A DNA stretch of 64,000 nucleotides from positions 124,001-188,000 of the forward strand of contig NZ_QGMP01000002.1 of assembly GCF_003259185.1 (NCBI RefSeq), in the 5' to 3' direction. The position numbers were made by a program, and so were the translations under genes. Shown here piece after piece: positions 18,922 through 34,068 of the stretch. Source of the DNA: Isoalcanivorax indicus (GTDB lineage Bacteria; Pseudomonadota; Gammaproteobacteria; Pseudomonadales; Alcanivoracaceae). Each line of letters begins with the position of its first letter. Position 1 is the stretch's first letter. Under the pieces are notes generated by a model that did not search any database, was not told where the DNA came from, and worked only from the letters and a program-made list of their open reading frames with translations.

Positions 18922-21900
18922 ATGTATCTGAACAACTATGGCGTTGATGCCGTACTTCAACTCTCCCGTAATTTTCTGAAAGAAGTCATTGTTCGCGAGG
19001 CGTATACCCGTGCCGGTGAGGACGGCAACCTGAACGCCGCAACACTGCCCAATCTCGGTGATGCATCCGGTGGATTGGCCATCCCGTTGCCCGAATCGCA
19101 GGGCGCTTTTCGCTACGACAATCTGAACTTTCGCTATCGCGATGTGAAGTTTGTTCATCGCAACAGCGATCACACCAGCTTTGCCGTCGTCACCATCGAG
19201 CGCGCAAGCGGTGAACTGTTGTATGGCAACAGCATGACGACCGCGACACAGCCGGTGGACACCATCGACCTGTGGTTGCGACTGGCCGTGGACAACGAAG
19301 CGTCCACCGCAACGCGGCTGGTGATTCGCACCTCGCTGGATCCAGCCATTGATCAGTTGATCGATCTGTTCAATCTGGACATCGACATCTCGCAGTTCGA
19401 GTTCACCTTCCCGTTCGAGCTGGGCGGCCTCAGCATGGGCGGGCAGACCCTTACGCTGGGCAATCCCGCTGGCGCCATCAAGGCACTGCCCGACGGTTCA
19501 CTCGCCATTGGCCTGAATATCCGCCTGGACGGCCAGGGCGAGCCCGGCATCAATGTCGATACTTTCCGGCAGCAGTACACCGCCAATCTGCTGTTCGGCG
19601 ATCAGGACTGGGGGCTGTCCGTCAGCCGCTGGCCGATTGCGCGCTTTGTCGAGCAGATTGATCTCTCATCGCAAGTGAGCGGCGTTGAGAACACCGGCCA
19701 GCAACTGGACAGCATCGACAGCAACGGCATCCATATTTCCGGCTACGGCAGCTACGATGCCACCATCGGTACCTGGGGCTTTACCTTCGACGCCACCGCC
19801 ACCTTCAATGTGGAAAACCCGGGCGCCGGCAATTCCCGCGTAGTGGCCGACTGGACACTGGAGAATGTGGAGCTGGATTCCTCCTTCGGCAGCTTCCTTG
19901 ACGGGATATTCGGTTTTATCGACAGCGCCATCGGCGATGACGGCCAGGGCAATGTGGAAATCCTGAAGCCGGCCAGCTTTTCCAGTGGCGACGGACCGAC
20001 CGGCGCGCTGCATGTGCTCGAAGCACGCACCGCCGATGCCCGCGTGGACTTTCTCGGGCAGGGCGAGGCCAGCGCCATCGCCGATCCGCTGATGCAGGTG
20101 AGCACTGACAGCCTGGCGCTCGGGCCGGCATGCACTGGCGGCATCTCCAACGGCACCGTGATCGTTTCCAACCCGGCCACCAGCGACGACACCCATGCGC
20201 CACTGACCGCCAACCACCATACCCTGGAAGGGGACGATGCCGAGGCCTTCCGCTTTGTCAGCGGCCAGCACAGCGTGGTCCTTCAGGCAGGTCAGCAGCG
20301 CCTGATACGTGTCGGCCGAGCTACTGGCGCAGGCGACGGGTATCACGAAGCCGAACTCGTGATTCGCACCAACGCGGGGGAAAAACGGGTGGCGCTGTCG
20401 CTGTACCAGGGCAATGCCACGCTGGCCCCGCTGCCGGATACCCTGGAGATGGACGCCAGCGAACGCCGCAACTGGTGCGAAGGCGCCCGCGACCAGCGCG
20501 TGTCCAAAGTGATCACCTTGCAGGCCACCGGCACCGGCGCCGTGCGCGTCTGCAACGTGCAACTGGCGGGTGCTGGCGGCCAATGGAGCTTGTCCGGTAT
20601 CCAGTCCGGGGATCTGATTCCGGCAGGCGAACAGCGCCAGGTCACCGTCACCTTCGCCGCCAACGAACTGGACGCCTGGCATAACGCCACGCTGACACTG
20701 AACACGCAACCCGACGGCGCCCAGCACCACGTCGCCATTACCGCCCGGGTCCGTTCTGCCGCTCGCGGTTATATGCCACCCGGCACCGTGATCGGCGGGC
20801 TCGATTTCGCCGCCTTCGGGCTGGGCGGCACACGCCTGTGTTTCCGGATAGACGATCTCAACCGCGCGCTGGACTTCATCGACAAGATCAACCAGGACTT
20901 CCAGGGCATCTGGGGTGGTGTCGAGCCCATTTGCTGCCCACCCCCGCAACAGCCCATGTGCCTGTGCCAGGACTGGCTGAGCATGGACCTGATGAACCTG
21001 CCCCCCGGCGGCGCCCGCATTCACGGCGGCACCGGCGCCCTGCTGGAACAGAAGCTGCTGGGCGGCAGCGACCGCATCATGGCCCCGGTGGCCCACGGCG
21101 AAGCGCCCACACTGGCCCTGGATATCCGCGACACCAAAGGCCACACCTTCGAAGGCCATATGCGCCGCTGGGTAGTATCACGCCCCGCCGGCTGGACACA
21201 GGACACGCCCGTTGACCATGTGACCGCCGCCGGTGGGCGCATCGCACTGACCTCCGGCGCCTCCCTGACACTGCTGAGCCTGGATGAGAAAGGCGGCCTG
21301 CAAGGCGGCGACCCGATGGCACTGCGCGAGCCACCGCTAAGCCTGGGCGCGCTGGGCGCACGCCTGGTGATCAGCGACCGCCAGGGCCTGCAACTGCTGG
21401 ACACCGCATCGCCCGCCAGCAAACCCATGCCCATCGAGGCCCCGGCCTTCAACGGCCTGCTGACGCTGAACCAGTACCACGGCAAACCCGGGCATTATTT
21501 GGTGGGCCTGCAAGCCGGGCACCTGCAAGTGCTGGACCTGCGCAACCCGCAGGCGCCGCGGATCATTGATCGTGCGGAAGTCAGCGGCCAGCCCGATCGC
21601 GGTCAACTCGCCGGGCAACATATGGTGCTGGCCAGCCAGAACACCGTGGAGATCCTGGCCTGGCAACAGGGGCGGTTGCGCTCACTCGGCGCCACCAAGG
21701 TGCCGACAGACGTCGCCAGCATGGTGAGCAACGGCGTGGATGTGTGGGTGCTCGACAGCAAAGGCGCCGGGCATGTGCTGCGCCTGACGGACGACGGGCT
21801 GGCGGTGATCGGCAGCATGACACTGCCCGAGAAATGGCGGGACGGCTTGCCGCATGGCGGCTTCAGTGCACTGGATGGCAAGCACTGGGTGGCCGGGCGA

Positions 21901-21978
21901 CTCGACCGGCGTGGTTGTAACGTCTACACCGTGGAGGTTGCTGCTGCGGACCTGCCGGGGAAATCAGGCAGAAAATAA
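18922..21978 (+). CDS. Large (1018 aa) unknown protein with Ig-like and propeller-like regions
   Basis: A 1018-residue protein with no recognisable signal peptide. Residues about 1-380 form a beta-rich unknown domain. About 395-620 contain two Ig-like (ASPM-SPD2-Hydin/choice-of-anchor-like) modules: EAELVIRTNAGEKRVALSLY, and RQVTVTFAANELDAWHNATL followed by TLNTQ. A Cys/Pro-rich linker follows (PICCPPPQQPMCLCQDW, about 675). About 700-1010 is a run of strand repeats such as GHYLVGLQAGHLQVLDLRNP, like LVIVD-type beta-propeller repeats. It has a strong ribosome site (CAAGGAGGCAGC) and is monocistronic, ending at a strong hairpin. The role is unknown; a cell-surface or complex-scaffold protein is possible, but export is not evident. 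Confidence 0.75.
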   Translation: MYLNNYGVDAVLQLSRNFLKEVIVREAYTRAGEDGNLNAATLPNLGDASGGLAIPLPESQGAFRYDNLNFRYRDVKFVHRNSDHTSFAVVTIERASGELLYGNSMTTATQPVDTIDLWLRLAVDNEASTATRLVIRTSLDPAIDQLIDLFNLDIDISQFEFTFPFELGGLSMGGQTLTLGNPAGAIKALPDGSLAIGLNIRLDGQGEPGINVDTFRQQYTANLLFGDQDWGLSVSRWPIARFVEQIDLSSQVSGVENTGQQLDSIDSNGIHISGYGSYDATIGTWGFTFDATATFNVENPGAGNSRVVADWTLENVELDSSFGSFLDGIFGFIDSAIGDDGQGNVEILKPASFSSGDGPTGALHVLEARTADARVDFLGQGEASAIADPLMQVSTDSLALGPACTGGISNGTVIVSNPATSDDTHAPLTANHHTLEGDDAEAFRFVSGQHSVVLQAGQQRLIRVGRATGAGDGYHEAELVIRTNAGEKRVALSLYQGNATLAPLPDTLEMDASERRNWCEGARDQRVSKVITLQATGTGAVRVCNVQLAGAGGQWSLSGIQSGDLIPAGEQRQVTVTFAANELDAWHNATLTLNTQPDGAQHHVAITARVRSAARGYMPPGTVIGGLDFAAFGLGGTRLCFRIDDLNRALDFIDKINQDFQGIWGGVEPICCPPPQQPMCLCQDWLSMDLMNLPPGGARIHGGTGALLEQKLLGGSDRIMAPVAHGEAPTLALDIRDTKGHTFEGHMRRWVVSRPAGWTQDTPVDHVTAAGGRIALTSGASLTLLSLDEKGGLQGGDPMALREPPLSLGALGARLVISDRQGLQLLDTASPASKPMPIEAPAFNGLLTLNQYHGKPGHYLVGLQAGHLQVLDLRNPQAPRIIDRAEVSGQPDRGQLAGQHMVLASQNTVEILAWQQGRLRSLGATKVPTDVASMVSNGVDVWVLDSKGAGHVLRLTDDGLAVIGSMTLPEKWRDGLPHGGFSALDGKHWVAGRLDRRGCNVYTVEVAAADLPGKSGRK

Positions 21979-21997
21979 CAGACCTGCCAGTAAGGAA

Positions 21998-22025
21998 GGG
22001 GGCCACGGACCCGGTCCGTGCCCCC
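21998..22025. terminator. Bidirectional terminator hairpin
   Basis: A long GC-rich stem (GGGGGC.ACGGACC pairing with GGTCCGT.GCCCCC) lies between the convergent large gene and the small coiled-coil gene, overlapping the latter's stop codon. One mismatch or bulge in the stem. Confidence 0.7.
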
Positions 22026-22270
22026 TAACCTATGGGCTCTTTTTTCTGATACTCACGCTCTTCACAGGCCGCTGCCGCCAGCTCGGCGGCATTACGCTTG
22101 CTGCCCAGCGCCTTGAGTTTGGTGTCCAGCGCCTGGCGGTGTTCGTGCAGGGCCGGGTTGGGGATGGGGGATTTCAGATGCCTGTCCAGATCGGCCAGTT
22201 GTTGCCGCAGTGCCGAGATCTCGCCGTCCAGGGCGCTGACCTTGTCCCAGTACTTCCCGCATTTGTTCAT
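22025..22270 (-). CDS. Small coiled-coil protein
   Basis: An 81-residue charged protein with a heptad-like helix across residues 10-35 (VSALDGEISALRQQLADLD) and a second one at about 45-72. No family recognised. It is preceded by GAGGGACAAGCG, a reasonable ribosome site. Small helical proteins of this kind are often poorly conserved; I judge it real because of the ribosome site, the terminator and the chromosome-like codon use. Confidence 0.6.
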   Translation of the reverse strand: MNKCGKYWDKVSALDGEISALRQQLADLDRHLKSPIPNPALHEHRQALDTKLKALGSKRNAAELAAAACEEREYQKKEPIG

Positions 22271-22403
22271 CGCTTGTCCCTCAGCTGAATACTCCTGATC
22301 TTCTTACCATCCGGGGAATTGATCAAATTCATAAGTTTAATGAGATTCAATATCATCTATAGCGGCGCTAAGGTGCATGTGTGGATACAGTGGGGGACAG
22401 ACC

Positions 22404-22685
22404 ATGGCGACCGTTCATGCACGGCTGGAGACACCCCAACCCCAGCGGCTACTGACCCGGCTGGGGCGGCATTGGGGGCACAAGTTTGAGGTAGAGATGG
22501 AAGCGGGGCGGTTGCTGGTGCCCTTTAGCGACGACGCCCGGGCGTGGTTGCAGGCGTCAGATGCGGTGCTGGAGATCCGTATTGAGCACCCGGATCAGAC
22601 GGGTGTGGACAAGCTGAAGGGGGTTGTGGCGGATCATTTGCAGCGGTTCAGCAAGGATGAGGTGTTGGTGTTTGAGTGGTCGTGA
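22404..22685 (+). CDS. DUF2218 domain-containing protein
   Basis: A 93-residue protein matching the DUF2218 pattern: an N-terminal MATVHARLETP, a conserved KFEVEMEAGRLLVPF strand pair, then FSDDARAWLQA, and a C-terminal LQRFSKDEVLVFEW. Function unknown. The start is the ATG at 22404 after GGGGACAG. It is the last gene with typical host base composition before the AT-richer island, so it marks the island's left edge. Confidence 0.82.
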   Translation: MATVHARLETPQPQRLLTRLGRHWGHKFEVEMEAGRLLVPFSDDARAWLQASDAVLEIRIEHPDQTGVDKLKGVVADHLQRFSKDEVLVFEWS

Positions 22686-22709
22686 GCAGGGTACATCGAT
22701 GACGACCAC

Positions 22710-23558
22710 TCAATGGTTCTTGAAGACATGCTCCCGATGGAATGCCAGATAGTCACCAATCTTGGCGGGCGCCTTCCTCAAACGAACTGAAGGGTCGATC
22801 TGCAAGATCTTTGCATCGGCTTCGGAAAGCCGTTCGGAAATGCGAATCTTGGCGCTCTCCTCGAACGTCACAAAGCCTGTGTCGAAGAGGTGATCCAGCG
22901 TTGGATGCAGAAGCAAGCCATTCATAGGATCGAGACGTTCTTCGTTGGTGCAACTTCGCCAGGGCTTGATGTGTGACGCTCGAAGCAGCGAGAGATTCGA
23001 TAGACCCGTAACGGAGCAGCCACCCCATAGCCGAATCAAGCGTTCTCTGAACAACCCTTGGCCTATGCGGCTTTTGACTATGGACTCGCGCTCTGTTTGC
23101 TCCAGAACGTCATATTCTTGCTTATGCTTCTCGATGTCGTCGAGGGGATCGGCCAACTCATTTGTAGAGCCTATAGAGAATACGAACTCACTGGGTTTGG
23201 TAGTGTGTAGCTGGAAGCTCTCCAGGGAGATTTCGCCGTGATAAACAAAAGGCGAGTGGTGGATGTCTCGATAGAAAAGATGGATCTGATCGCCGTTCTG
23301 CTTGGCGTTGATGATTCTGGCATCCGAAGAATGCTTCTCCTCGCCCTCCCAATGCAAGAAGCCGCCGTCGAGGTAATCGTTGTACTGTGTTAGGGCTTGC
23401 TGCTTTTCCTTGGTCACGAATAGGATGATGAAGTTCGTGCCGGATGGGGTGACTACGCCGCGGGATATGGCTTGGAAGCCTTTGTACCCCCACAGCTCGG
23501 CAAGAAAGGGGCGTTCGTATGAATTACCAATATTCAAGCCATCAAGTGTTACTTTCAT
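22710..23558 (-). CDS. HNH endonuclease (HNH_2 type) with N-terminal unknown domain
   Basis: About 282 residues. The C-terminal third carries the HNH_2 signature: CSVTGLSNLSLLRASHIKPW, then RLDPMNGLLLHPTLDHLFD, with the His of ASHIKPW, the Asn of NGLLL and the His of LDHLFD as the metal/catalytic set. The N-terminal ~150 residues resemble the target-recognition part of standalone restriction-type HNH proteins. Likely a DNA nuclease with a defence role (inference from the family and the island). The start ATG at 23558 lies 10 bp after another ATG; neither has a strong ribosome site. It is AT-richer than the flanks. Confidence 0.78.
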   Translation of the reverse strand: MKVTLDGLNIGNSYERPFLAELWGYKGFQAISRGVVTPSGTNFIILFVTKEKQQALTQYNDYLDGGFLHWEGEEKHSSDARIINAKQNGDQIHLFYRDIHHSPFVYHGEISLESFQLHTTKPSEFVFSIGSTNELADPLDDIEKHKQEYDVLEQTERESIVKSRIGQGLFRERLIRLWGGCSVTGLSNLSLLRASHIKPWRSCTNEERLDPMNGLLLHPTLDHLFDTGFVTFEESAKIRISERLSEADAKILQIDPSVRLRKAPAKIGDYLAFHREHVFKNH

Positions 23559-23660
23559 TATGAGCACCATATAACTCAAGTTCGCCATGTAAAACCATCG
23601 CAAAGCGTATCCAACACAAGAAATTTTTAATTCGATTTTAGTGGCACTGGGCGCCATGCC

Positions 23661-24563
23661 TTATCTTAAACTTTCATGCAGATTTTCGATAGCATTCATC
23701 ATGCCTTTTCGCTGGGCCAAAAAGCTAAAGAACATCGGCACATTAACCCCCATAATGGTCGATTCGAGCTGACCTCTTACACCACCATAGAGAGAACTTA
23801 TTATCCTTGCATTTCTGTCACAACATTTAATAAGAGAATGACACTCTTCCAGGCTAACCTGTTTTATAAAGGCCTGGACCTTATGAGTATCTCCAGCATC
23901 TATATTAGGGATAGAGATCCACATTTTTGTGGCTATTTCAGATAATGCCATCTCAGCTCTATGCATTGCCGGCAACGCACCCCAGTTGGACGCTAGTGCA
24001 TTGTGGCCTCTAGCAAGGAATCTATGAACCTCTATCGAAGACTCCGAAATAGCTTGTCTTGCCTGATAAAATTCCTGCTGTCGACTGATATTAAAATTCA
24101 CTATAAACGCCGCCTCTTGCATAGTCGTCGCGGCCTGAACTCCACTTACATCTCGAATTAGCTCCTCCGCATATAATTGCACCGTAGTAATTGATTTTAA
24201 TGCGTTTGAGAAAAAATCTTCTATTTCGGTGGCAACACCTAGCATGATATTGGACCGCATCTGGCTACGCCAGTTTATGGTAGCGGTGTGGAAGGCGACC
24301 GCAAAACCAACAATTGTTACCGATGAGGATATCAGTGCCACCTTGTACTCTTTTTCCAAGGAAACTAAGACGGAAAAAATTTCTTCGCTGTTCAGAGGAG
24401 AGCACCCAAAAATCAATTCGGCATTAAAATATATAAGAACAGCGATTATCAGCAGCCCGTACGTTGTACGAAAAAAGAATTTCAGCAAAAGAGATATAAG
24501 CAGATAAGAGTAAATAAGCCTTGCCAATACTTGGGGCGGGATGAAGTTCAGGATGTTACGCAT
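23661..24563 (-). CDS. Unknown membrane protein of the island
   Basis: A 300-residue protein. Two hydrophobic stretches lie in the N-terminal half (about 14-50, including LIYSYLLISLLLKFFF and LLIIAVLIYF, and about 75-95, ALISSSVTIVGFAVAF). A long helical soluble part (about 100-300) follows, with several cysteines. No family recognised. It is low-GC and on the same strand as its island neighbours. The topology resembles membrane-anchored effectors or sensors of defence modules, but I cannot support a function. Confidence 0.65.
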   Translation of the reverse strand: MRNILNFIPPQVLARLIYSYLLISLLLKFFFRTTYGLLIIAVLIYFNAELIFGCSPLNSEEIFSVLVSLEKEYKVALISSSVTIVGFAVAFHTATINWRSQMRSNIMLGVATEIEDFFSNALKSITTVQLYAEELIRDVSGVQAATTMQEAAFIVNFNISRQQEFYQARQAISESSIEVHRFLARGHNALASNWGALPAMHRAEMALSEIATKMWISIPNIDAGDTHKVQAFIKQVSLEECHSLIKCCDRNARIISSLYGGVRGQLESTIMGVNVPMFFSFLAQRKGMMNAIENLHESLR

Positions 24564-24815
24564 TGCATGCCCTCATATTTCGATTATTATTGTGTTTAAG
24601 GTGGCGATTCGGCCCGAACCATACCAACATATTCCGGTTATCTTCCCTATTCCCAGCCCCTAAGGTGCTAATGGCCGACTTCCGATTGTTGATATTTGTG
24701 TGGCGGTCACGGTTTCTCTCCTGCCCCCTGCTGGAGATCTCTGATTCATAGAAATACTTGGTCCCGAAAGCCGTTGCAGATCAAGGCACGGCAACATATC
24801 TGGTGATAAGCGGCG

Positions 24816-25469
24816 CTACCCGCTCCAAACGCACCACTCGACAGGCTTGGGTTCCGCCTCCAAACGCTCTTCCAGCCCTCTGGCAATGTATGACATATGA
24901 CCAGCCCCGACAAGGTACACACCTCTACTGAACGAATTCATACGACAGAAGCCGTAAATGTTTTCCAGCATTGCTTCCTCTCGATTTCTTAATTGTATGT
25001 ACCATGCCGAAAGAAGACCTTGCAGACGTGCGTTGCCAGAACTGGAAATACATGTCTCTAATAACGCATCCGCTTTGTTTCGGAGCTCAATCTGCGCCAA
25101 ACCGCTCAAAAAGTTATAACCATGATTGAAAGCCATGCGATCAATATTCGATACTGCTCTGCAGTACTCTTTGGAGCTTTGCTCGGCATATGCAAATATT
25201 TCGTCAGCTCCTGCCTTCAAGCCTTGTGGCGTCGCGAAGTCGTCAACGGGCACTTGTCGCACTGCCTTCATTTTCATATACGATTTAATCGCTCTTATTT
25301 CTACCGTACTCGCAGCCTCGTCTTTATAGAGTCGATCATGATCTTCTGGACGAATTTCTTCAAATATTACGTCTGGATCAACCGCCTTCAAGAGCCCCAA
25401 TAGCTGAGCTTCATTGCATTTTCCAAGTTCTCTATGCACCGTTCCAACAAGCGTTATTCTCCCAACCAT
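24816..25469 (-). CDS. TraB/PrgY/Tiki-superfamily hydrolase-like protein
   Basis: A 217-residue protein with the spaced motifs of the TraB/Tiki/EreA fold: an N-terminal LVGTVHRELG (GxxH), then DVIFEEIRPED (acidic pair), RNREEAMLENI and VYLVGAGHMSYI (GxGH near the C-terminus). Members include the pheromone shutdown protein TraB/PrgY and Wnt-cleaving Tiki; bacterial roles are mostly unknown and metal-dependent hydrolysis is proposed. It has no signal peptide or membrane helix, unlike many TraB proteins. It lies in the defence-like island between the unknown membrane protein and the TIR gene. Confidence 0.65.
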   Translation of the reverse strand: MVGRITLVGTVHRELGKCNEAQLLGLLKAVDPDVIFEEIRPEDHDRLYKDEAASTVEIRAIKSYMKMKAVRQVPVDDFATPQGLKAGADEIFAYAEQSSKEYCRAVSNIDRMAFNHGYNFLSGLAQIELRNKADALLETCISSSGNARLQGLLSAWYIQLRNREEAMLENIYGFCRMNSFSRGVYLVGAGHMSYIARGLEERLEAEPKPVEWCVWSG

Positions 25470-25567
25470 ATATTTGCTCCGCTACATCGTCGAATCTCAG
25501 CGATAGCCATGAACCCAACACTCGCATGATAAGCATGAGCACGCGACCTTCTTAATTAACGTGTTGC

Positions 25568-26413
25568 TTACACTTCATTTTGATGATGGAAAATGGCTCT
25601 TTTGATTTCCTCCATAAACCCAACGTCTGAGGCGTCAACATATCTATAGTCCTGCATAAGAGGAGGCATTTCAGCATGATCAATATCAATATTTATAATG
25701 GCGAATTTTTTTGACTTATCTCTCATTCTCTGCTGCATGAAGAAATTTGCTTCCGCAATCGTCCAACCCGATTTCCCATTTAAAAAATTACTCGAAAGGA
25801 AGATAAGACCAAAGTCGCACTTTCTTAGCCCGTCATTAATTTTCTCAGTAATGCTATCTCCTGGGGCAATTTCCTCCTTGTCATACCAAGCTCGAATCTC
25901 AGATTTTTGGAGCTCGTTAAACACATTATCCACGAATTTTTTATCTTTACTGGAATGCGATAAGAATACAGTGAACTTACTCATGGTAATTGGCCTACCC
26001 CACGTTCTGAACAACACTTCTCTGTCTGGGAAGAAGAATATTTCGTTTGTTCCAGACGTCATATTTATATCCACGTCTTCCGGGTTATTTAACGAAATAA
26101 AGTTGTATGACTTATTTCGCATTGAGGCCATAATGTCTTTAACGAATCTGTTGTATGCTCTTTTTGTGGATGGGTACTTACTTGCCAAATACCTGTCAAA
26201 GTCTTCGTGTGATTTTTCGAAGTTTAGAAACCACAGCAACTCGAAGTGATATGGATTATTATTAACGAAGATGAGTGATCCAACCAAGACATCCCTGTCA
26301 TACCGAGACAAAATATCCTTTATGAAATCTCTTTCTCCTTTCCTGTTACCATAATCTAACTCTAACAAGTAAGATCTATGTTCGTCTTCCAATTTAAAAT
26401 CCTTCGATATCAT
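25568..26413 (-). CDS. TIR-domain protein with unknown N-terminal domain
   Basis: A 281-residue protein. Residues 1-143 form an unrecognised domain. Residues about 146-275 are a TIR domain: KFTVFLSHSSKDKKFVDNVF (strand A and box 1), RAWYDKEEIAPGDSITEKI (BB loop), CDFGLIFLSSNFL, then SGWTIAEANFF. Glu221 there is in the place of the catalytic Glu of NAD-cleaving TIRs. Bacterial TIR proteins commonly deplete NAD+ or make cyclic ADP-ribose signals in antiphage defence. The N-terminal domain probably senses or binds a partner. No SIR2, Thoeris ThsA or argonaute gene adjoins it. Confidence 0.82.
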   Translation of the reverse strand: MISKDFKLEDEHRSYLLELDYGNRKGERDFIKDILSRYDRDVLVGSLIFVNNNPYHFELLWFLNFEKSHEDFDRYLASKYPSTKRAYNRFVKDIMASMRNKSYNFISLNNPEDVDINMTSGTNEIFFFPDREVLFRTWGRPITMSKFTVFLSHSSKDKKFVDNVFNELQKSEIRAWYDKEEIAPGDSITEKINDGLRKCDFGLIFLSSNFLNGKSGWTIAEANFFMQQRMRDKSKKFAIINIDIDHAEMPPLMQDYRYVDASDVGFMEEIKRAIFHHQNEV

Positions 26414-26660
26414 TCAATTTTACGTTTGGGGGTGCTGAAGCGAAGCTAATCGCTCCAGCAACCGCTCAGCGCATCTTTGTCTGTGCTTTTAGTAGAGCAA
26501 GTCATATATTGCATTCCACAACAATTAAACAGATTCAAATGCATAGGCGCCTAATGATTGAGCTCTCAGAGCGGCTCTTACCCAGCTATAAGAATCACCC
26601 TTCATGAAAATGGTGGAGGAAGAAACAGCCAGCGTCTTCATAAGATTAGGAGTTAATCTA
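26414..26660. other. AT-rich gap downstream of the fragment gene
   Basis: No credible gene. It contains an imperfect hairpin (GCTGAAGCGA / TCGCTCCAGC, about 26439-26464) just upstream of the TIR gene start. The remainder looks like decayed or non-coding cassette sequence. Confidence 0.4.
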
Positions 26661-26993
26661 TTAGACTCTTGATGTTTTCTTTGCCTCCAAAAAAATAATT
26701 TCGTCTTTTTCCTTACGGGGTCGCCGGAGTCTCTTCTCTAGTTCAGACCAGATACCAATTTGATCTTCTGCAGGCGTAACTGAAACAGCGACATGCTCAT
26801 TGAAGCCGGCCTCCATAGCGGAGGCCTCAAAGGTCATAGAGGCAGATCTTATCATTCGAATATAAGAGTCGCGATTGAACGATGCTGACAGGCCCACAAA
26901 GTGCTTACTCTTAAAATAAATCCTGCGAATGAAAGTGCATCGTCTCCACAGCACAACAACCTGTGTATGAGCCGTTTGGAGCTCCTCCAGCAA
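26661..26993 (-). pseudogene. Probable 5'-truncated fragment of an unknown gene
   Basis: An open frame whose coding-like sequence continues upstream of any good start: only TTG is available at 26993, and the frame runs back to a stop after GDEHNVLGLLEELQ. The readable protein (about 110-125 residues) ends in EKDEIIFLEAKKTSRV. No ribosome site is visible. Its 5' end lies against the inverted repeat at 27002-27061, consistent with loss of the N-terminal part by recombination. It could also be a real short gene with a TTG start. No family recognised. Confidence 0.35.
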
Positions 26994-27001
26994 TCCAAGA
27001 A

Positions 27002-27061
27002 CGTTATGTTCATCGCCCTATGAATGCGGTGCTCTAGGCCATACGACAGCGTAACGTAACG
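27002..27061. repeat. Imperfect inverted repeat after the cyclase-like gene
   Basis: The left arm CGTTATGTTCATCGCCCTATG pairs imperfectly with the right arm, which on the complementary strand reads CGTTACGTTACGCTGTCGTATG (shared CGTTA.GTT and TATG blocks). It has the size of an attC site but the opposite polarity (GTT on the left, AAC on the right), so I do not call it attC. It may be a terminator for the ParA/cyclase pair or a recombination scar. Confidence 0.45.
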
Positions 27062-27071
27062 CCTTCTTCAA

Positions 27072-27746
27072 TTAAATTAACTCCGGCATAGGTATATAGC
27101 GATCGAATCCTTGGCTCGCGCAATCGCAGGAAAACAAATACTGTTCAAACCAAGAATGTTTTTGAAATGCAACTTCATTTCCATCCAATTCCGCTATGTC
27201 TCTTAAGTATATTTCTCTTGCCATGCCATATACTTTATCCCAGTTCTTTGGATCAGCAATATTCAGGAAAACAATGCCATTTTGTTTAACCAGGAACCCT
27301 TCATCGAATATCTTTGGAAGCCCTCTTCCGGCCACGTACATATCCAAAATATTCTTATCTATAACTATGCGCGGGTATATCGCTTCCTTGCTTTCTAGCT
27401 CGTATGCTCGCGCAACCGCGTGACTATAAGTAATTCTACCGCTGTGAAAGTGCTTTGAGTAAGCCACCCCTCCCCGAATAAACAAACCCCTCTCCATAAA
27501 GGATATAAAAACCTTTTTTAGTAGCGCAATAAACTCCACAAACCTATCGTGATTGTTACAAGTAATGATAACTGTGTCCGATATAGCCTGAACACTAAAA
27601 ATGGCGTTATTTACTGTATTGAAGATTGATAAGGATTGAACCAAATCATCCTTAAAGCTTTCCTTACCGCTCTGTACATCTTGATTTAGCCTGTTGCGGT
27701 AAGAGAGAACATCAAGCAGCGCGGTGTAAACAAACTCAGAACTCAT
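27072..27746 (-). CDS. Divergent class III nucleotidyl cyclase-like protein, coupled to ParA-like ATPase
   Basis: A 224-residue protein. It shows the layout of small class III cyclase-homology domains: LLDVLSY near the N-terminus (Asp12, first metal-Asp position), AISDTVIIT (Asp57, second metal-Asp position) and LFIRGGVAYSKHF (residues 88-100). These are followed by AVARAYELESKEAIYPRIVI, which is shared by many cyclase-like bacterial proteins of unknown role. Both acidic metal positions are kept, so activity is possible, but the nucleotide-specificity residues are not clear. The start ATG overlaps the ParA stop by 4 bp (ATGA), so the two are translationally coupled. Relationship to Pycsar-type cyclases is only an inference. 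Confidence 0.7.
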   Translation of the reverse strand: MSSEFVYTALLDVLSYRNRLNQDVQSGKESFKDDLVQSLSIFNTVNNAIFSVQAISDTVIITCNNHDRFVEFIALLKKVFISFMERGLFIRGGVAYSKHFHSGRITYSHAVARAYELESKEAIYPRIVIDKNILDMYVAGRGLPKIFDEGFLVKQNGIVFLNIADPKNWDKVYGMAREIYLRDIAELDGNEVAFQKHSWFEQYLFSCDCASQGFDRYIPMPELI

Positions 27747-28771
27747 GAAATTGACTCTGCTATCAGTGAAATTTCATGCTTATAATCGTTCATCCTGTCT
27801 ACCCAAGGCTCCCAAACTGAGCCGTAGTACATCCTGCCATCACTTGAAGCCTCCTTTGTATGTTCTTGCTGAATATCAAATATGGCTCTTCCAAATAGTT
27901 GTGCAATCGGCGCCAACACCGCCACGTCCTTTATGGATGCAACGTATGGATTATCTACGTCAAATCCAAATTTTGGCTCAAAAAGTCCTTCCTTGCAAAG
28001 AGATGTAGAAATTTCATTTGATATTTTCTTTTGCCATTTTATATATGACTCCTTCACCCTTGCACCTGCATGAACCTTAAAGTTCTGGAGAATTGTTCCA
28101 GCCAATTTAGGCTTACCTTCAAAGGGTTCAATGCCAAACGGCACCAAAGACTGAGAAATTATTCGATGGCGATCAATCCATTCGCTAATGACATTACCTA
28201 ACAACTTTACAGCTTGATAACAAAAACGATCTGGAACAAGTGGAACAACAATCTCATCGGATGCTATAACGATAGTTTTAGTAATTGCACCTGTACTAGG
28301 GCCAACATCACACAGAACGTAATCGAATCCGCGTGCGTCAATCAGCGAACGCAATAATCTGTGCACAACAATGTAAGTGTTTTTCTCATGTATATTTTCG
28401 GTAACAGCTTGGTTCCAGGCCGTGCCGAAGTACGTTTCTGCTCTCGAGAATTCTAGATCACCCCGAAATAAAAATAATGACTTATATAAATTATGCTCAA
28501 CAAGTTCTATATCAGCCTGGTTTATTTCACCTTGCTGGCCCTTAAATCTCGGTAGCATTGATTCATAAATTGATGTTCCGGGCAACGAACAATCAGGATC
28601 ATCAATATCCTCCCGCGCAGCCAAGAAAAGCTCAGTCATGTTGCACTGTGGATCGCAATCAACTACTAAGACGCGTTTTCCAGTAGATGCGAGATAAGCT
28701 CCCAAGTTAAAGTTGGTAGTGGTTTTAGATACTCCGCCTTTATTGTTATACAAGGCTACTATTTTTCCCAT
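27743..28771 (-). CDS. ParA/MinD-family ATPase, first gene of a two-gene unit
   Basis: A 342-residue ATPase with the deviant Walker A NNKGGVSKTT (Lys11 and Lys16), switch I VVDCDPQCNMTELF and Walker B-like YVLCDVGPSTGAITK. About 100 residues of C-terminal extension beyond the core are unlike plasmid ParA. No ParB gene or parS-like repeat is nearby; instead the cyclase-like gene follows in a 4-bp overlap. This argues for a specialised switch ATPase working with the cyclase-like protein rather than for partition. It is low-GC and lies between attC-like sites, so the pair is probably a mobile cassette. Confidence 0.85.
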   Translation of the reverse strand: MGKIVALYNNKGGVSKTTTNFNLGAYLASTGKRVLVVDCDPQCNMTELFLAAREDIDDPDCSLPGTSIYESMLPRFKGQQGEINQADIELVEHNLYKSLFLFRGDLEFSRAETYFGTAWNQAVTENIHEKNTYIVVHRLLRSLIDARGFDYVLCDVGPSTGAITKTIVIASDEIVVPLVPDRFCYQAVKLLGNVISEWIDRHRIISQSLVPFGIEPFEGKPKLAGTILQNFKVHAGARVKESYIKWQKKISNEISTSLCKEGLFEPKFGFDVDNPYVASIKDVAVLAPIAQLFGRAIFDIQQEHTKEASSDGRMYYGSVWEPWVDRMNDYKHEISLIAESIS

Positions 28772-28799
28772 TTTAACTCCTTAAAATGGTCTCGGGGAA

Positions 28800-28872
28800 G
28801 TTAAACGCCCGCGATACTATAGGATTCGCGTTGCGGGCAGAATTTTTTTCTGCTTGATTGCGCTTGTCAGGC
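28800..28872 (-). repeat. attC-like recombination site (weak)
   Basis: On the minus strand it begins GCCTGACAAGCGCAATC and ends GGGCGTTTAACTT. The outer seven-base boxes (GCCTGAC, GTTTAAC) only approximate RYYYAAC/GTTRRRY. It lies between the nuclease gene stop and the ParA-like gene start, where a cassette boundary would be. Weaker than the three sites to its right. Confidence 0.45.
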
Positions 28873-28876
28873 GTAC

Positions 28877-30316
28877 TCAATTTAATGCCACTGCGCGGAA
28901 TCTTTGGGATAGAAATTCCTCATAGGGGTTTGGAACACCCTCTATAACCTTGTTGAGCATTACGATTAAATCGTCGTCAATTATTGGAAGCATGATCCCC
29001 CTGCCATCCACATACGTATCGTTACATCTTGCCAGTAGAGTATCCATATCATCTACCGTTCTACAAAGAAGCAGACCAAACTTGCCCAAATTCATTGAGA
29101 AACGGCCAGACAGCTGATCTATCTCTGGATTGGCAACTTCACGGGAGTAGTTCTTGCATTCCACAAAAATGAACTGGGCGGGAGTTTGATAAGTGGTATG
29201 TAGTCGATAGAAAAACCCTCCGCGTGCTGCATTATCAAAAGTGATATCTACCCGCTTTCTACCATCATGGATCTCATTCTCAACTATAGGTGAGACAACA
29301 TCAGGGTAAAAAAGGAACTCCAAAATGCCGACCACCAATCTATGATATCTGGTTGCGCCTTCTCCACCCGCGGCAATCTGACCAAGCTTTCTGATTAAGT
29401 ACTGCGCAATAATCGCGGGATCACTATCGTCTAATTCTTCGTTAGAGATGGCTGTAGCTGTGTGCTGGATCCACTCTTTAAAATCACGAAAAACCTCAGG
29501 ATGGGCATCTGTAAAAGTAGCAAGAAAGTCTTTCGAATAGGCGGACTCCCCGGACTCCTTTAAGGACTTCTTTGTTACATATGGCATACCGTTTACGCGA
29601 TGTTGAACAAGGGCTGAATAGTTTCGAAGATGCTCATGTTGCAGGTATTCGAGAACAAATTGATTGTAATACTTTTGAGGCGTGTATTTATTGGAGTAGG
29701 AGACAATTCCTTTAGGCACTAATAGTATCTTTCGCCCCTCTATAACAAGCATTGATTCATGCCGATTTCTCCACTCATTTGCAGCGCGCTCCCAATAGAA
29801 TCCAGACTGCACGTTTTGTTGTAACGCGATCCCCCATAACTTACACTGCTCTTGCGTGTAAGTTACAAGATGACCACGAATTATATTCGTAGTCATATCT
29901 GATATTTTGTCTTTATCGATGCCGTCAATAAAGAGACGGAAATCTTCTAGGTCCTCCACAATTCCAGTGGCCACAGCCTTGCTCTGAGCGATGCTATTAA
30001 AAAGCTTCTCGCTGTCGATGGAGCCAATAGCATTGCCACGAGGCTTTCCCCTGGATAGGCCCAAACATGTTTCATTGGGTTCGTGTAGATAATTAAAAAG
30101 AGCTCTCGCTCTCCTCCTTTCGTCATCTCGAATAAAATTAACAAAGGTCTGGAAGAAGCTTCGAAGTGTTCGTGTGGCATTCAAAGACCACAAGTCGGTG
30201 CGGCAGCCAAGAAAAAATGGATCGACAAACAAAGGCGTGTCATAATCTGTATCTATATCAACAAAATCTAGCTCGAACTGAGTGGCTTCTAAACTAAATC
30301 TTTCGCTGATTCTCAC
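28877..30316 (-). CDS. PD-(D/E)XK nuclease-domain protein, probable defence nuclease
   Basis: A 479-residue protein. The C-terminal part has the restriction-nuclease pattern: Glu333 in GILEFLF, Asp357 in RVDITF, then Glu386-x-Lys388 in FIFVECKN, with a following helix (NPEIDQLSGRFS). The N-terminal ~320 residues are unrecognised and start RISERFSLEATQFELDFVD. The start chosen is a GTG with a strong ribosome site (AAGGAG, 6 nt before); ATG codons further upstream lie inside the attC-like site. No methyltransferase adjoins, so it is not an ordinary type II system. It probably acts alone in defence or DNA processing. Confidence 0.78.
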   Translation of the reverse strand: MRISERFSLEATQFELDFVDIDTDYDTPLFVDPFFLGCRTDLWSLNATRTLRSFFQTFVNFIRDDERRRARALFNYLHEPNETCLGLSRGKPRGNAIGSIDSEKLFNSIAQSKAVATGIVEDLEDFRLFIDGIDKDKISDMTTNIIRGHLVTYTQEQCKLWGIALQQNVQSGFYWERAANEWRNRHESMLVIEGRKILLVPKGIVSYSNKYTPQKYYNQFVLEYLQHEHLRNYSALVQHRVNGMPYVTKKSLKESGESAYSKDFLATFTDAHPEVFRDFKEWIQHTATAISNEELDDSDPAIIAQYLIRKLGQIAAGGEGATRYHRLVVGILEFLFYPDVVSPIVENEIHDGRKRVDITFDNAARGGFFYRLHTTYQTPAQFIFVECKNYSREVANPEIDQLSGRFSMNLGKFGLLLCRTVDDMDTLLARCNDTYVDGRGIMLPIIDDDLIVMLNKVIEGVPNPYEEFLSQRFRAVALN

Positions 30317-30331
30317 CCCGGACTCCTTATC

Positions 30332-30411
30332 GCATAACGCCAACGGTAATGGGCAACAATGAAGCGCAGCGTATTTGCGCGTTTCATTGACCACATTCTT
30401 ATGTGTTATTC
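30332..30411 (-). repeat. attC-like recombination site
   Basis: An 80-bp imperfect palindrome. Its ends are GCATAAC and GTTATTC on the plus strand, and inner blocks CAATGAA, AATG and GCGC pair across the centre. On the minus strand it ends GGCGTTATGC, like integron attC sites. It sits between the zinc-motif gene and the nuclease gene, overlapping the former's last codons, as cassette attC sites do. Confidence 0.68.
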
Positions 30412-30761
30412 CGGCTGTTGAAGTAGAAGGCAGTGACGCCGCCAATCAAGGTACCTGCGAAAGCGAGGAATTCAGTAAAATACGGATTTCTACTCAGAGC
30501 CAGAACAAAAACAAAAAGCAGAACCAGAAAAACAATACCCATTGCTAGCAATGGCTTGGTTCGCTTATCTAATCGCTCAGTCATTGGTTCCGACTTCCCT
30601 AGCCCGCCACAGGTGCCACAAGCTAGCCCAACAAATTCCTTTCCTTTTAATTCGTGATATTTCGCGCAAGCCAAACAACTCGAGCCATTCGTCCCCGATT
30701 TGCAGACACCCGTTTCGTCGCAGTGACGACAGGGGTACAAATTTGATCTTACTTCCCGCAT
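30399..30761 (-). CDS. Small cysteine-rich (zinc-motif) membrane protein
   Basis: A 120-residue protein. Three CxxC pairs lie in the first 55 residues (PCRHC, LACAKYH with further Cys, and LACGTCGGLG), resembling DnaJ-type zinc modules. Two membrane helices follow (about 72-92 and 98-112). No family recognised. It occupies a single cassette between two attC-like sites. Its C-terminus runs into the downstream attC-like site. Confidence 0.65.
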   Translation of the reverse strand: MREVRSNLYPCRHCDETGVCKSGTNGSSCLACAKYHELKGKEFVGLACGTCGGLGKSEPMTERLDKRTKPLLAMGIVFLVLLFVFVLALSRNPYFTEFLAFAGTLIGGVTAFYFNSRNNT

Positions 30762-30779
30762 TCAGATGCTTCCCAGTAG

Positions 30780-30854
30780 ACGTAACGCTTTGCACAGCGA
30801 TGCGAGGAACGAACGTCCGGCGCCACAGGCGCGTACTGATGCAACTTGTTAAGT
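30780..30854 (-). repeat. attC-like recombination site
   Basis: A 75-bp imperfect palindrome. On the minus strand it starts ACTTAACAAGTTGCATC (box ACTTAAC fits RYYYAAC exactly) and ends TGCAAAGCGTTACGT. Paired blocks are TAAC...TTGCA and GCG. It lies between the genes at 30874-31119 and 30399-30761 in the same orientation as its neighbours. Confidence 0.7.
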
Positions 30855-30873
30855 GTGGGGGCCTCTTTACTCA

Positions 30874-31119
30874 TTAGTAGACACCTGCAGATTCATCAAT
30901 GATGAATTGAGCCTTATTAGCGGCACACCATTCCTCCAGCTCCTGCTTTAACTGAGGCCAAACATCTCTTGCCCAAGCCGGAGCCCTCCGTTCCCATGCT
31001 GATTCTGTTGGAAGATAAGCAGATAGTATTCCCATCGGAAGCTCAAGAACAAACGAACCACCAGGCCCGGAAACGACCAGTTCTTCTTTCCATCTTGGCT
31101 GGAATTTGAAAATGCTCAT
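30874..31119 (-). CDS. Small hypothetical cassette protein
   Basis: An 81-residue protein (SIFKFQPRWKEELVVSGPGG at the N-terminus, helical and Trp-rich in the middle: AWARDVWPQLKQELEEW). No family recognised. It fills the interval between two attC-like sites almost exactly, the usual layout of an integron cassette with one small gene. The start ATG lies just inside the upstream site's end. Confidence 0.62.
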   Translation of the reverse strand: MSIFKFQPRWKEELVVSGPGGSFVLELPMGILSAYLPTESAWERRAPAWARDVWPQLKQELEEWCAANKAQFIIDESAGVY

Positions 31120-31129
31120 TGATATTTAC

Positions 31130-31207
31130 GCTTAACGCCGCGCACACCGGCGCGAGCTTGCGCGCGTCCGACAGCCGAAGGCTGTGTAGTGCTGCGCTTG
31201 GTTATGG
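31130..31207 (-). repeat. attC-like recombination site
   Basis: A 78-bp imperfect palindrome. On the minus strand it begins CCATAACCAAGCGCAGC, has a central GCCTTCGGCTGT-type stem and ends GCGCGGCGTTAAGC. The final box GTTAAGC fits GTTRRRY exactly. It marks the right end of the recognisable cassette series. Confidence 0.72.
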
Positions 31208-31286
31208 CTGCGACGCTCCCGACTTTCTATTAGCACTTTGCGAAGCGCTAGCGGAGCCACAGCCCGAACAATGCGGGGCAAGAACT

Positions 31287-31499
31287 ATGGCTTGCCGCCG
31301 CCCCAAAATCCTCTTACTGGCTCACCACGCCGATAGCGATGATGTGGCCGATTACCGTTTACTTTCCGACTGCCACCAGGAACGGAACTGCCGAGCCTGC
31401 GATGAGCCGGTGAATTTCAATACCGGTGAAGCCGACTTGTGGCACGACGCAGCCGGACAAACCTACGCCCAATTAAATGCAAAAGGCAGAGCTCCATAA
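31287..31499 (+). CDS. Doubtful short open frame in the island's right edge
   Basis: A 70-codon frame starting ACRRPKILLLAHHADSDDVA with a weak upstream GGGGCAAG. It has cysteines near NCRACDEPV, which could be a zinc motif. It points opposite to the cassettes and lies just outside the last attC-like site. Coding status is uncertain. Confidence 0.25.
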   Translation: MACRRPKILLLAHHADSDDVADYRLLSDCHQERNCRACDEPVNFNTGEADLWHDAAGQTYAQLNAKGRAP

Positions 31500-31816
31500 C
31501 AGGTATTAGGACGCCGGAGCATATATTGAATAACGACGCCCGCAGCCTATCCAGATATCAATTCACTCCAAATGGCTTTTATATCTCTCTAAAAACAGAG
31601 AACGAACTTGCCAACATGACGGAGGGCACAATGACAGGAAGCATGCTCATCTATTCAAACCCACCCACGCTACCGCCAGAAATCGCACTCCCCCAAGCAC
31701 GATCCCCCCACAAACAAGCGCCACGCCCAGCGTGACCCCTGTCTCATTTCTTCTGTGAGGTAAGTAATACCGGAAGGAAGATTTATTTCAAGTGATGGCA
31801 CTTTGCCATCATCGGC
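31500..31816. other. Gene-poor boundary between island and backbone
   Basis: About 317 bp with no gene I can support; an open frame on the plus strand has no ribosome site or familiar sequence. A 7-bp stem-loop (GATGGCA ctt TGCCATC, 31794-31810) just downstream of yheV may end the prlC-yheV transcript. Base composition returns to GC-rich after about 31840. Confidence 0.5.
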
Positions 31817-32035
31817 CTATTTGCCCGATTTCCACACCACCGGGCTGCTCCCGCCCCCATCACCGCCCTCTGGCGATGTCGGGGCGGGCGCCGGTTCAGC
31901 GTCCAGATCCTTGCGCATATCGCAGGCCACGCACTCCATCCACAGGCTGTCGCCGTCCTGGACACGCACGATCTTGTCCAGGGCGCCGCACTCCGGGCAG
32001 GTGGCGCCGGCGATAAAGCGGCGTTTCACGCTCAT
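31817..32035 (-). CDS. YheV-family putative zinc ribbon protein
   Basis: A 72-residue protein with two CxxC pairs (CPECGALD and ECVACDMRK) forming a zinc ribbon, and a low-complexity Pro/Gly tail. It overlaps the prlC stop by 4 bp, the conserved prlC-yheV arrangement of gammaproteobacteria. Function unknown. It restarts the chromosomal backbone after the island. Confidence 0.85.
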   Translation of the reverse strand: MSVKRRFIAGATCPECGALDKIVRVQDGDSLWMECVACDMRKDLDAEPAPAPTSPEGGDGGGSSPVVWKSGK

Positions 32036-34068
32036 GCGGCAATGCCGCTGTGGCGCAGCAGGGGTTCCACGCTGGGTTCGCGGCCGCGGAAGGCCTTGAA
32101 CAGCTCCATGGGCTCCTGGCTGCCGCCCATGGCCAGGATGTGCTGGCGGAAGTCGCGGCCGGTGTCGGGGTTGAACACGCCTTCTTCCTCAAAGCGGGCG
32201 TAGGCATCGGCAGAGAGCACTTCGGCCCATTTGTAGCTGTAGTAGCCTGCGGCGTAGCCCCCGGCGAAGATGTGGCCGAAGCCGTTCTGGAAGCGGTTGA
32301 AGGCGGGGGGCTTGATCACGGCCACTTCGTCGCGCACCTCGTCGAGCACGGTCTGGATGTCCAGCTGGTCGTTGTATTCGGCGTGGATGCGCATATCGAA
32401 CAGGGAAAACTCCAGCTGGCGCACCATCATCATGGCGCTCTGGAAGTTCTTGGCGGCGAGCATCTTGTCCAGTTTTTCGCGGGGCAGGGGTTCGCCGGTT
32501 TCATAGTGGCCGGAGATCAGACGGATGCCTTCTTCGGTCCAGCACCAGTTCTCCATGAACTGGCTGGGCAGCTCCACGGCGTCCCAGGCCACGCCGTTGA
32601 TGCCGGAAATGCCGCTCACGTCCTGTTCGGTCAGCATGTGGTGCAGGCCGTGGCCGAATTCGTGGAACAGGGTGGTCACTTCGTCGTGGGTCAGCAGGCC
32701 GGGCTTGCCGCCGGCGGGCGGGGCGAAGTTGCAGCTCAGATACGCCACGGGCAGTTGCAGGCTGCCGTCCAGGCGGCGGCGCCGCACCTGGCAGTCGTCC
32801 ATCCAGGCGCCACCGCGTTTGCCGGTGCGGGCGTACATGTCCAGGTAGAAGCCAGCGATAAGGGTGCCGGATTCATCGACAACGTCGTAATAGAGGACGT
32901 CCTTGTGCCAGGTGTCCACGCCGTCTTTGGCCTGGATGCGGATGGCGAACAGCTTCTCCACCACGGCGAACATGCCGTGGATCACTTTTTCGGCGGGGAA
33001 CCAGGGGCGCAGCTCTTCTTCAGAGATGCTGTAGCGGGCTTCGCGCAGGCGTTCGCTCCAGAATCCGATATCCCAGGGTTGCAGGTCGCTGGCCCCGTTT
33101 TCAGCCGCAAAGGCTTTGAGTTCGGCCAGCTCTTTCTCGGCCTGGGGCTTGGCGCGGCGGGCCAGGTCGCGCAGGAAGGTCTGCACTTCGTCCACGTCGC
33201 GGGCCATCTTGGTGGCCAGGGATTTTTCGGCATAGTGGTTGAAGCCGAGCAGGCGGGCCTGTTCGTGGCGCAGGCGCAGGATCTCGCGCATCAGGGCGCT
33301 GTTGTCGAACTTGCCTGCATCCGGGCCTTCTTCCGAGGCGCGGGTGCAGTGGGCGCGGTACATCTCTTCGCGCAGGGCGCGGTTCGTAGCGTGGCAGATC
33401 ACGGCGTAATAGCAGGGGAAGTCCAGGGTCAGCATCCAGCCGTCCAGGCCTTCTTCCTTGGCCTTGTCGGCGGCGCCGGCGCGGGCAACGTCGGGCAGGC
33501 CGTCCAGTTCACGCTCGTCGGTCACGTGCTTGCGCCAGCTCTGGGTGGCGTCCAGCACATTGTCAGAGAAGCGCGAGGTCAGTTCAGACAACCGCTTGCT
33601 GTTGGCCATGTACTCGGCCTTGCGCTCCACGGGCAGGTCCACGCCAGACAGGCGGAAGTCACGCAGGGTGTCGTCCAGGTCCTTTTGCTGGGCGGGGGTC
33701 AGGCGGGCGTATTCCTCGCTGTCGCGCACGCTCTGGTAGGCGGCAAACAGGTCGGCGTTCTGGCCGGTCTCGGTGCCGTATTCCGACAGCTTGGGCAGGC
33801 AGGCGTTGTAGGCATTACGCAGGGCTTCGTTCTGGGCCACGGCGTTCAGGTGGCCCACGGGGCCGAAGGCCTTGCCCAGGCGGTCATCTTCTTCATCCAG
33901 CGCCTGCACCAGCGAGGCCCAAGTCCAGGGGCCACCCTCCGCCAGCAGCGCCTTGATCCGCGCCCGGCCGGATTCGATCAGCGCGTCCACCGCCGGCTCC
34001 ACATGCTCGGGCTTGATGGCAGAAAACGGCGGCAGGCCGGGGTAATCGATCAGGGGGTTGCTGGACAT
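32032..34068 (-). CDS. prlC: Oligopeptidase A (M3 metallopeptidase)
   Basis: A 678-residue zinc peptidase that degrades short peptides, including cleaved signal peptides, in the cytosol. The zinc motif HEFGH is at residues 469-473 within TLFHEFGHGLHHML, and the length is that of the family. The start is the ATG following CGAGGAGCCCCGC. It is divergent from the gamma carbonic anhydrase gene across 171 bp. Confidence 0.96.
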   Translation of the reverse strand: MSSNPLIDYPGLPPFSAIKPEHVEPAVDALIESGRARIKALLAEGGPWTWASLVQALDEEDDRLGKAFGPVGHLNAVAQNEALRNAYNACLPKLSEYGTETGQNADLFAAYQSVRDSEEYARLTPAQQKDLDDTLRDFRLSGVDLPVERKAEYMANSKRLSELTSRFSDNVLDATQSWRKHVTDERELDGLPDVARAGAADKAKEEGLDGWMLTLDFPCYYAVICHATNRALREEMYRAHCTRASEEGPDAGKFDNSALMREILRLRHEQARLLGFNHYAEKSLATKMARDVDEVQTFLRDLARRAKPQAEKELAELKAFAAENGASDLQPWDIGFWSERLREARYSISEEELRPWFPAEKVIHGMFAVVEKLFAIRIQAKDGVDTWHKDVLYYDVVDESGTLIAGFYLDMYARTGKRGGAWMDDCQVRRRRLDGSLQLPVAYLSCNFAPPAGGKPGLLTHDEVTTLFHEFGHGLHHMLTEQDVSGISGINGVAWDAVELPSQFMENWCWTEEGIRLISGHYETGEPLPREKLDKMLAAKNFQSAMMMVRQLEFSLFDMRIHAEYNDQLDIQTVLDEVRDEVAVIKPPAFNRFQNGFGHIFAGGYAAGYYSYKWAEVLSADAYARFEEEGVFNPDTGRDFRQHILAMGGSQEPMELFKAFRGREPSVEPLLRHSGIAA

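Follow-up and report, generated by a model that had tools for sequence, protein, structure and literature searches.

On balance, we favour reading the gene pair described here as a two-gene mobile effector module that is gated by a ParA-type ATPase and serves in phage defence or as a toxin–antitoxin system. The pair lies in the window (the whole 64,000-nt stretch of DNA that was analysed) and consists of a gene for a ParA/Soj-like ATPase and a second gene, hereafter the partner, whose product has a predicted class III cyclase fold (Table 1).

Table 1. Position and basis of the features that make up or surround the gene pair in the window
Feature	Position	Strand	Basis
ParA/Soj-like ATPase, first gene of pair, 342 aa	27743..28771	-	ORF; Pfam AAA_31, 1.3e-29
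Class III cyclase-fold partner (predicted), second gene of pair, 224 aa	27072..27746	-	ORF; predicted structure; profile comparison
ATGA start–stop overlap between ATPase and partner genes	27743..27746	-	ORF coordinates
AT-rich variable island holding the pair, beside prlC	22690..31500 (approximate)	.	GC profile; comparison with relatives

The initial annotation of this DNA described two genes overlapping by 4 bp (ATGA), and both ORFs and their overlap were found where it had placed them; the arrangement likely reflects translational coupling. The deviant Walker A motif reported for the ATPase is present (NNKGGVSKTTT, with the core KGGVSKT), as are the Asp12, Asp57 and RGGV...YELE...YPRI pattern attributed to the partner, with D12 and D57 invariant in 10/10 paired partners and in 14/14 members of a wider set. 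The extension noted at the ATPase C-terminus corresponds to a long C-terminal part that is common to all ten paired ATPases and is therefore not peculiar to the window ATPase.

Co-occurrence of the two genes across genomes was borne out, as the ATPase and partner recur as a unit in ten distinct loci (the window, Grimontia hollisae, the UR115 plasmid, L020–L023, G179, G536 and G654), always adjacent and in constant gene order. The spacing between them is −8 to +3 bp in 10/10 pairs, with the nearest start codon taken in two loci, and exactly −4 bp in 5/10. Relative to the window, the Grimontia partner and ATPase are 79 % and 89 % identical, respectively, while the corresponding values for the UR115 pair, which is carried by a Hyphomicrobiales plasmid, are 36–38 % and 45 %; at both loci, the partner gene directly follows the ATPase gene. 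Both genes are under purifying selection between the window and Grimontia (Nei–Gojobori dN/dS: ATPase 0.044 with dS 1.43; partner 0.12 with dS 1.05). Querying viral contigs with the ATPase alone returned 13 loci, namely the Grimontia pair, four full-length relatives (L020–L023) and eight remote or partial ParAs. The partner lies next downstream in 4/4 of the full-length relatives and is absent from the eight remote or partial ones. Chance proximity of the partner gene to the ATPase gene is thereby refuted.

The extent of the unit was defined by comparison of the loci. BLASTn analysis of window positions 20001–34000 against the 16.7-kb Grimontia locus revealed a single shared block (1714 bp, 80.5 % identity), which starts 13 bp before the first gene and ends 1 bp after the second. 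The 123 ORFs that flank the pair across these loci yielded a single cross-locus match, a LexA/UmuD-like pair, and no third conserved gene was found beside the pair. Given the single shared block and the lack of a conserved flanking gene, the unit comprises two genes, and the pair is a mobile two-gene unit. It is also rare and patchy, being present in 2/292 and 3/369 genomes (the window's own genome counted) and at 1/11 plasmid loci examined, from 14 matching records.

The loci that hold the pair are varied. In Grimontia, it is flanked on one side by a phage portal gene (phrog_68, 8.3e-118) and on the other by a putative P2 gpA gene, the latter reading being based on place and size, with a weak replication-initiation match (2.6e-4). 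P2-family capsid and scaffold models were found among the flanking proteins (joint Pfam scan of 97 proteins, with 25 of 136 families listed), and the Grimontia pair is inside a P2-like prophage. Its position is the one at which Rousset et al. 2022 (PMC9122126) report a defence hotspot in P2-like phages of E. coli. The region downstream of this pair (L006:8887-11952) contains a RelA/SpoT-domain gene (Pfam 1.2e-16) and genes that, by eye, read like a response regulator and a HATPase, perhaps representing further cargo. Elsewhere, the pair sits on an element carrying a Zot-like gene of the kind found in filamentous phages (L020), and between DnaB-like and NinB genes (L021); the remaining pairs are located on two further viral contigs, one plasmid (UR115) and chromosomes.

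In the window, the pair resides in an AT-rich island, as the initial annotation had recognized: GC content is 41–48 % in 1-kb windows between 23 and 31 kb and mostly 58–71 % outside. DNA like this island is absent beside prlC in the stretches compared from four relatives of the genus, and the site is variable within the genus. Four proteins encoded at the prlC site of relatives were scanned in PADLOC; those of G001 and G005 returned an SspF-like gene (1.9e-45) and a HerA-like gene (8.4e-29), respectively, while the other two gave one weak PglW match and no match. The island contains an HNH nuclease candidate, and no tRNA was found in the window. Upstream of the pair, window positions 28877–30445 match the PADLOC candidate PDC-M36A (4.7e-41; start codon unsure). 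Downstream, at 25568–26413, lies a gene for a TIR-domain protein, which matches the PADLOC candidate PDC-S66 (1.2e-23) and whose N-terminal half has no assigned domain. The attC-like sites that had been placed near the pair were not recovered: a consensus scan of the entire window detected a single place (39198–39297), which is outside the island. An integron integrase model gave four sub-threshold matches and zero above the cut-off in the window genome, and sub-threshold matches were also present in 14/14 control genomes. With neither an attC-like site in the island nor an integrase above the cut-off, a reading of the island as an integron cassette was rejected.

The partner belongs to a family that sequence databases describe poorly. 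The window partner had no match in Pfam or PADLOC at E values up to 1, and NCBIfam returned one chance-level hit (0.14), with no curated cut-off reached; a match was obtained to phrog_23933 (7.3e-21), for which PHROG assigns no function. Searching PDB sequences with the partner profile produced two chance matches only. The AlphaFold2 model of the partner, built from a 14-row alignment (pLDDT 83.9, pTM 0.83), was more informative: in a Foldseek search of the PDB, 50/50 listed matches (the best 50 of 84 with E up to 0.001) were class III adenylyl or guanylyl cyclases, the best among those listed having an E value of 1.1e-5 and a probability of 1.00, with target TM-scores up to 0.69. HHalign comparison of 38 family members with 30 canonical cyclases returned a probability of 92.4 % (E 5e-7), compared with 1.0 % for the family versus SIR2, 0.2 % for the family versus ParA and 0.2 % for SIR2 versus cyclases as controls; using the ten paired sequences alone against the canonical cyclases, the signal was weak (3.2 %). 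The predicted structure and profile alignment thus support the class III cyclase homology domain fold and the metal site proposed for the partner.

In the HHalign alignment of the 38 family members with the canonical cyclases, D12 and D57 coincide with the canonical metal aspartates and R91 with the Arg of the RxG strand. In class III cyclases, the helix that follows this strand carries an Asn and an Arg that act on the transition state. These canonical residues are absent from the partner: the window protein has Ala112 and Glu116 at the aligned positions, which vary among the ten. Other residues are invariant in the ten paired partners (R91, H99, Y115, E118, R126, K196 and W199), and across the wider family A9, D12, L14, S56, D57, R91, G92, Y115, P125, K196 and W199 are conserved in 14/14 members. 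The model is reminiscent of the Rv1900c CHD, Ma1120 (PDB 1ybu, 4wp9) and similar small class III cyclase domains in its predicted fold and metal-site positions, but differs from them in its low identity (~8–16 % among the matches listed), its missing Asn/Arg pair and its own set of invariant residues. Taken on the predicted structure, the partner resembles a divergent enzyme that has retained the two-metal site, whereas the rest of its active site has been remodelled and is strongly conserved. As the canonical Asn/Arg are missing, cyclic-nucleotide production is uncertain, and the partner may be inactive as a cyclase.

The ATPase was modelled with high scores (AlphaFold2: pLDDT 89.9, pTM 0.91), and its nearest structures in Foldseek were ParA (8ray), DIP2308 (3pg5) and Soj; it also matches phrog_164, a ParA-like partition protein (2.4e-38). 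A wider viral scan with the ATPase yielded 74 loci. For the partner count and tree, we used 81 ATPases, mostly from the viral-contig collection searched, leaving out near-identical copies and hits scoring <100. The gene directly downstream is SIR2-like in 18, cyclase-fold in 10, HEPN-like in 10 and RelA/SpoT-like in 6; in 37/81, none of these four partner kinds lies directly downstream, a few of these loci being cut by contig ends and most not. Pfam analysis of downstream genes confirmed SIR2_2 in 5/5 tested, RelA_SpoT in 4/4 and HEPN_RiboL-PSP in 4/4 (L062 below the curated cut-off), and the SIR2 partners start at −4 in 11/18.

In the ATPase tree, which was made by a quick method without bootstrap and midpoint-rooted, with five long branches unsure, a branch with support 100 has the cyclase-paired ATPases to one side of it, the group holding the HEPN-paired ATPases (99) adjoins them and RelA/SpoT pairing occurs in two separate places. 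Partner labels change 9 times on the tree, compared with 39.9 times in shuffles (81 rows). This ATPase lineage occurs with different partners in the same slot. SIR2, HEPN and RelA/SpoT are familiar immune or toxin effector families.

Several further arrangements were seen around these ATPases. In L086, L091, L105, L121 and others, a SIR2_2, RelA_SpoT or RiboL-PSP-HEPN gene is directly after the ParA gene, often with a 4- or 8-bp overlap. Fifteen ParA ATPases form a clade of their own, in which a gene of ~400 aa lies upstream and overlaps by 4 bp in 5/5 examined (L127, L129, L131, L132 and L137). The product of this upstream gene may contain an AlbA/Schlafen-type domain; the one such gene scanned in PADLOC matched Argonaute-associated models (best 2.2e-16).

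One version of this arrangement has a precedent. Anantharaman et al. 2013 (PMC3710099) described a HEPN gene (MAE_18760) next to one for a ParA/Soj-like ATPase and postulated that this dyad is a toxin–antitoxin pair. Like the window pair, it is a two-gene unit in which the ATPase gene adjoins an effector gene, but the second gene in the window encodes a predicted cyclase fold rather than a HEPN protein (no Pfam match at E up to 1), and SIR2 and RelA/SpoT versions exist too. The HEPN-paired ATPases detected here are probably the 2013 group. In the literature searched, with preprints and most subscription journals outside its range, we found no description of a cyclase, SIR2 or RelA/SpoT version of the pair. 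A survey of NTP-dependent conflict systems (eLife 2020; PMC7159879) treats MinD/ParA-like and cNMP cyclase domains, in its pertinent sections, as effector domains of larger systems, and a ParA–cyclase pair is not described in those sections.

The use of one conserved regulator family with many unrelated enzymes is also reminiscent of Panacea (PanA), a hyperpromiscuous antitoxin network (PMC10440598). The regulator of the present pair differs in being a ParA-fold ATPase with no Panacea domain, and the ATPase is a putative neutralizer only. A gene with a SocA/Panacea antitoxin domain (3.9e-21) was seen at L078:7251-7760, +203 bp after a ParA of the wider group.

A toxic or antiviral action of the partner, its restraint or triggering by the ATPase, the trigger itself and the chemistry involved are all inferred. 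In the mechanism that we propose, a Soj/ParA-type ATPase no longer engaged in partitioning would act as a sensor and switch for the state of the cell or of an invader. Its ATP-dependent dimerization and DNA binding, or the loss of a bound trigger, could control the coupled partner, which on release would act on cellular nucleotides by cyclization or other phosphoryl chemistry. Such action would damage nucleotide metabolism and stop the growth of the infected cell, and the outcome would be abortive-infection or toxin–antitoxin protection of the carrier prophage, plasmid or island. Several findings weigh against this reading: the replaced canonical Asn and Arg, the weak HHalign signal of the ten paired sequences, the rarity of the pair, the greater frequency of cyclase-fold relatives that lack the ATPase, the 37/81 ATPases followed by none of the four partner kinds and the two prlC-site proteins of relatives that gave a weak or no defence match.

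The initial annotation had envisaged a ParA-type switch controlling a nucleotide-signal enzyme. The recurring unit, the cyclase fold and the metal aspartates all speak for this idea, while the missing canonical Asn/Arg and the absence of a conserved receptor gene tell against its signalling component; overall, that interpretation is supported.

It is unlikely, in our estimation, that the pair serves in classical toxin–antitoxin addiction rather than in phage defence, with the ATPase as antitoxin and the partner as toxin stabilizing a mobile element. Such a role would be in keeping with the one postulated for the ParA/Soj–HEPN dyad (PMC3710099) and with the presence of one pair on a plasmid (UR115) and several on viral or prophage contigs. 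Against it, two of the places that carry the pair, the P2-like prophage of Grimontia and the prlC site, look like defence sites, the former in view of PMC9122126. The strong conservation of the ATPase reflected in its dN/dS also argues against it. Usual antitoxins are labile, unlike this highly conserved ATPase. Toxin–antitoxin and phage-defence roles overlap and are inseparable from sequence.

A relay resembling Pycsar appears improbable. In such a relay, ParA would control the synthesis of a cyclic nucleotide by the partner, and the cell would be killed by a receptor, either encoded nearby (such as the TIR protein) or unlinked. We presume that the PADLOC library holds PycC models; it gave no match to the window partner (E up to 1) or to the L020 partner, and eight further partner relatives yielded one match only, to a chance-level methyltransferase. 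Pycsar combines the class III cyclase PycC with a cyclic-pyrimidine receptor, and the likeness of the partner to PycC (PMC11224242) lies in its predicted class III cyclase fold and its pair of metal aspartates. The TIR-domain gene of the window is also close to the pair, with one small ORF between them. The pair differs from Pycsar in its ParA ATPase, in the lack of a conserved receptor or effector gene and in the loss of the canonical Asn/Arg. Further against a relay, the ten loci have no third gene in common and the TIR protein has TIR models only in Pfam, with no cyclic-nucleotide-binding domain. The TIR protein was separately considered as a conserved effector of the pair and rejected, as it lacks cross-locus conservation. 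A direct effector therefore fits better than a relay, because no conserved receptor or third gene accompanies the pair.

ParB was sought with PF02195, and the claim that the ATPase has no ParB partner held: the family is absent from the stretches around the pairs, although above the cut-off in 5/10 of the pair-bearing genomes or records. In the window genome, ParB is ~115 kb from the pair, and none was found in the UR115 plasmid or in the four viral records, some of which may be incomplete. The idea that the partner takes the place of ParB in a partition or positioning system was rejected as highly improbable, for although the first gene encodes a true ParA-fold ATPase with a match to a partition phrog, no ParB lies beside the pairs, the partner has a predicted cyclase fold, the slot behind related ATPases is occupied by SIR2, HEPN and RelA/SpoT enzymes and several pairs are in chromosomes or prophages.

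Returning to the reading of the pair as a ParA-gated effector module, a broader version can be put forward tentatively. It is possible, though we hold it with some doubt, that this ParA branch is a general gate for interchangeable toxic enzymes, with at least four warheads (SIR2, which consumes NAD; HEPN, which cuts RNA; RelA/SpoT, which pyrophosphorylates nucleotides; and a cyclase-fold enzyme that has a rewired two-metal active site and new chemistry), forming two-gene immune modules that are carried by prophages and islands and that read invader DNA or partition state. If this were true, bacterial immunity would gain a new sensor class, in which the ATPase familiar from plasmid and chromosome movement acts as a modular immune switch, and a setting would be provided for a cyclase-fold family that has no Pfam, PADLOC or curated NCBIfam match. 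The ParA–HEPN idea of 2013 would also become testable as a general rule, because the four partner types could be assayed in parallel in the same experiment.

Additional database searches were carried out with individual proteins. Scanning genome contigs with the partner by exact peptide patterns recovered one relative only, and phage records yielded no match to three query partners (two cyclase-fold, one SIR2). Among plasmids, 23 records matched the L020 partner, 11 the L022 partner and 4 a RelA/SpoT partner; no ParA is listed in the A. gerneri plasmid record, which was the one new match examined. In E. coli, 113/5426 genomes gave matches of short extent (9 % in each of the ten listed), and strain NCTC86, the one genome examined, has a ParA without a coupled partner.

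Finally, cyclase-fold relatives without this ATPase nearby are commoner than the ATPase–partner pair, accounting for 3/5 and 7/10 genome hits and for 10/11 of the plasmid loci examined (14 records matched), which suggests that the domain can work without the ATPase. Solo relatives on rhizobial plasmids (L012, L013 and L014) lie near AbiEii/AbiGii, Dsr1 and DUF4238 annotations, and the cyclase fold may thus act alone in defence islands.
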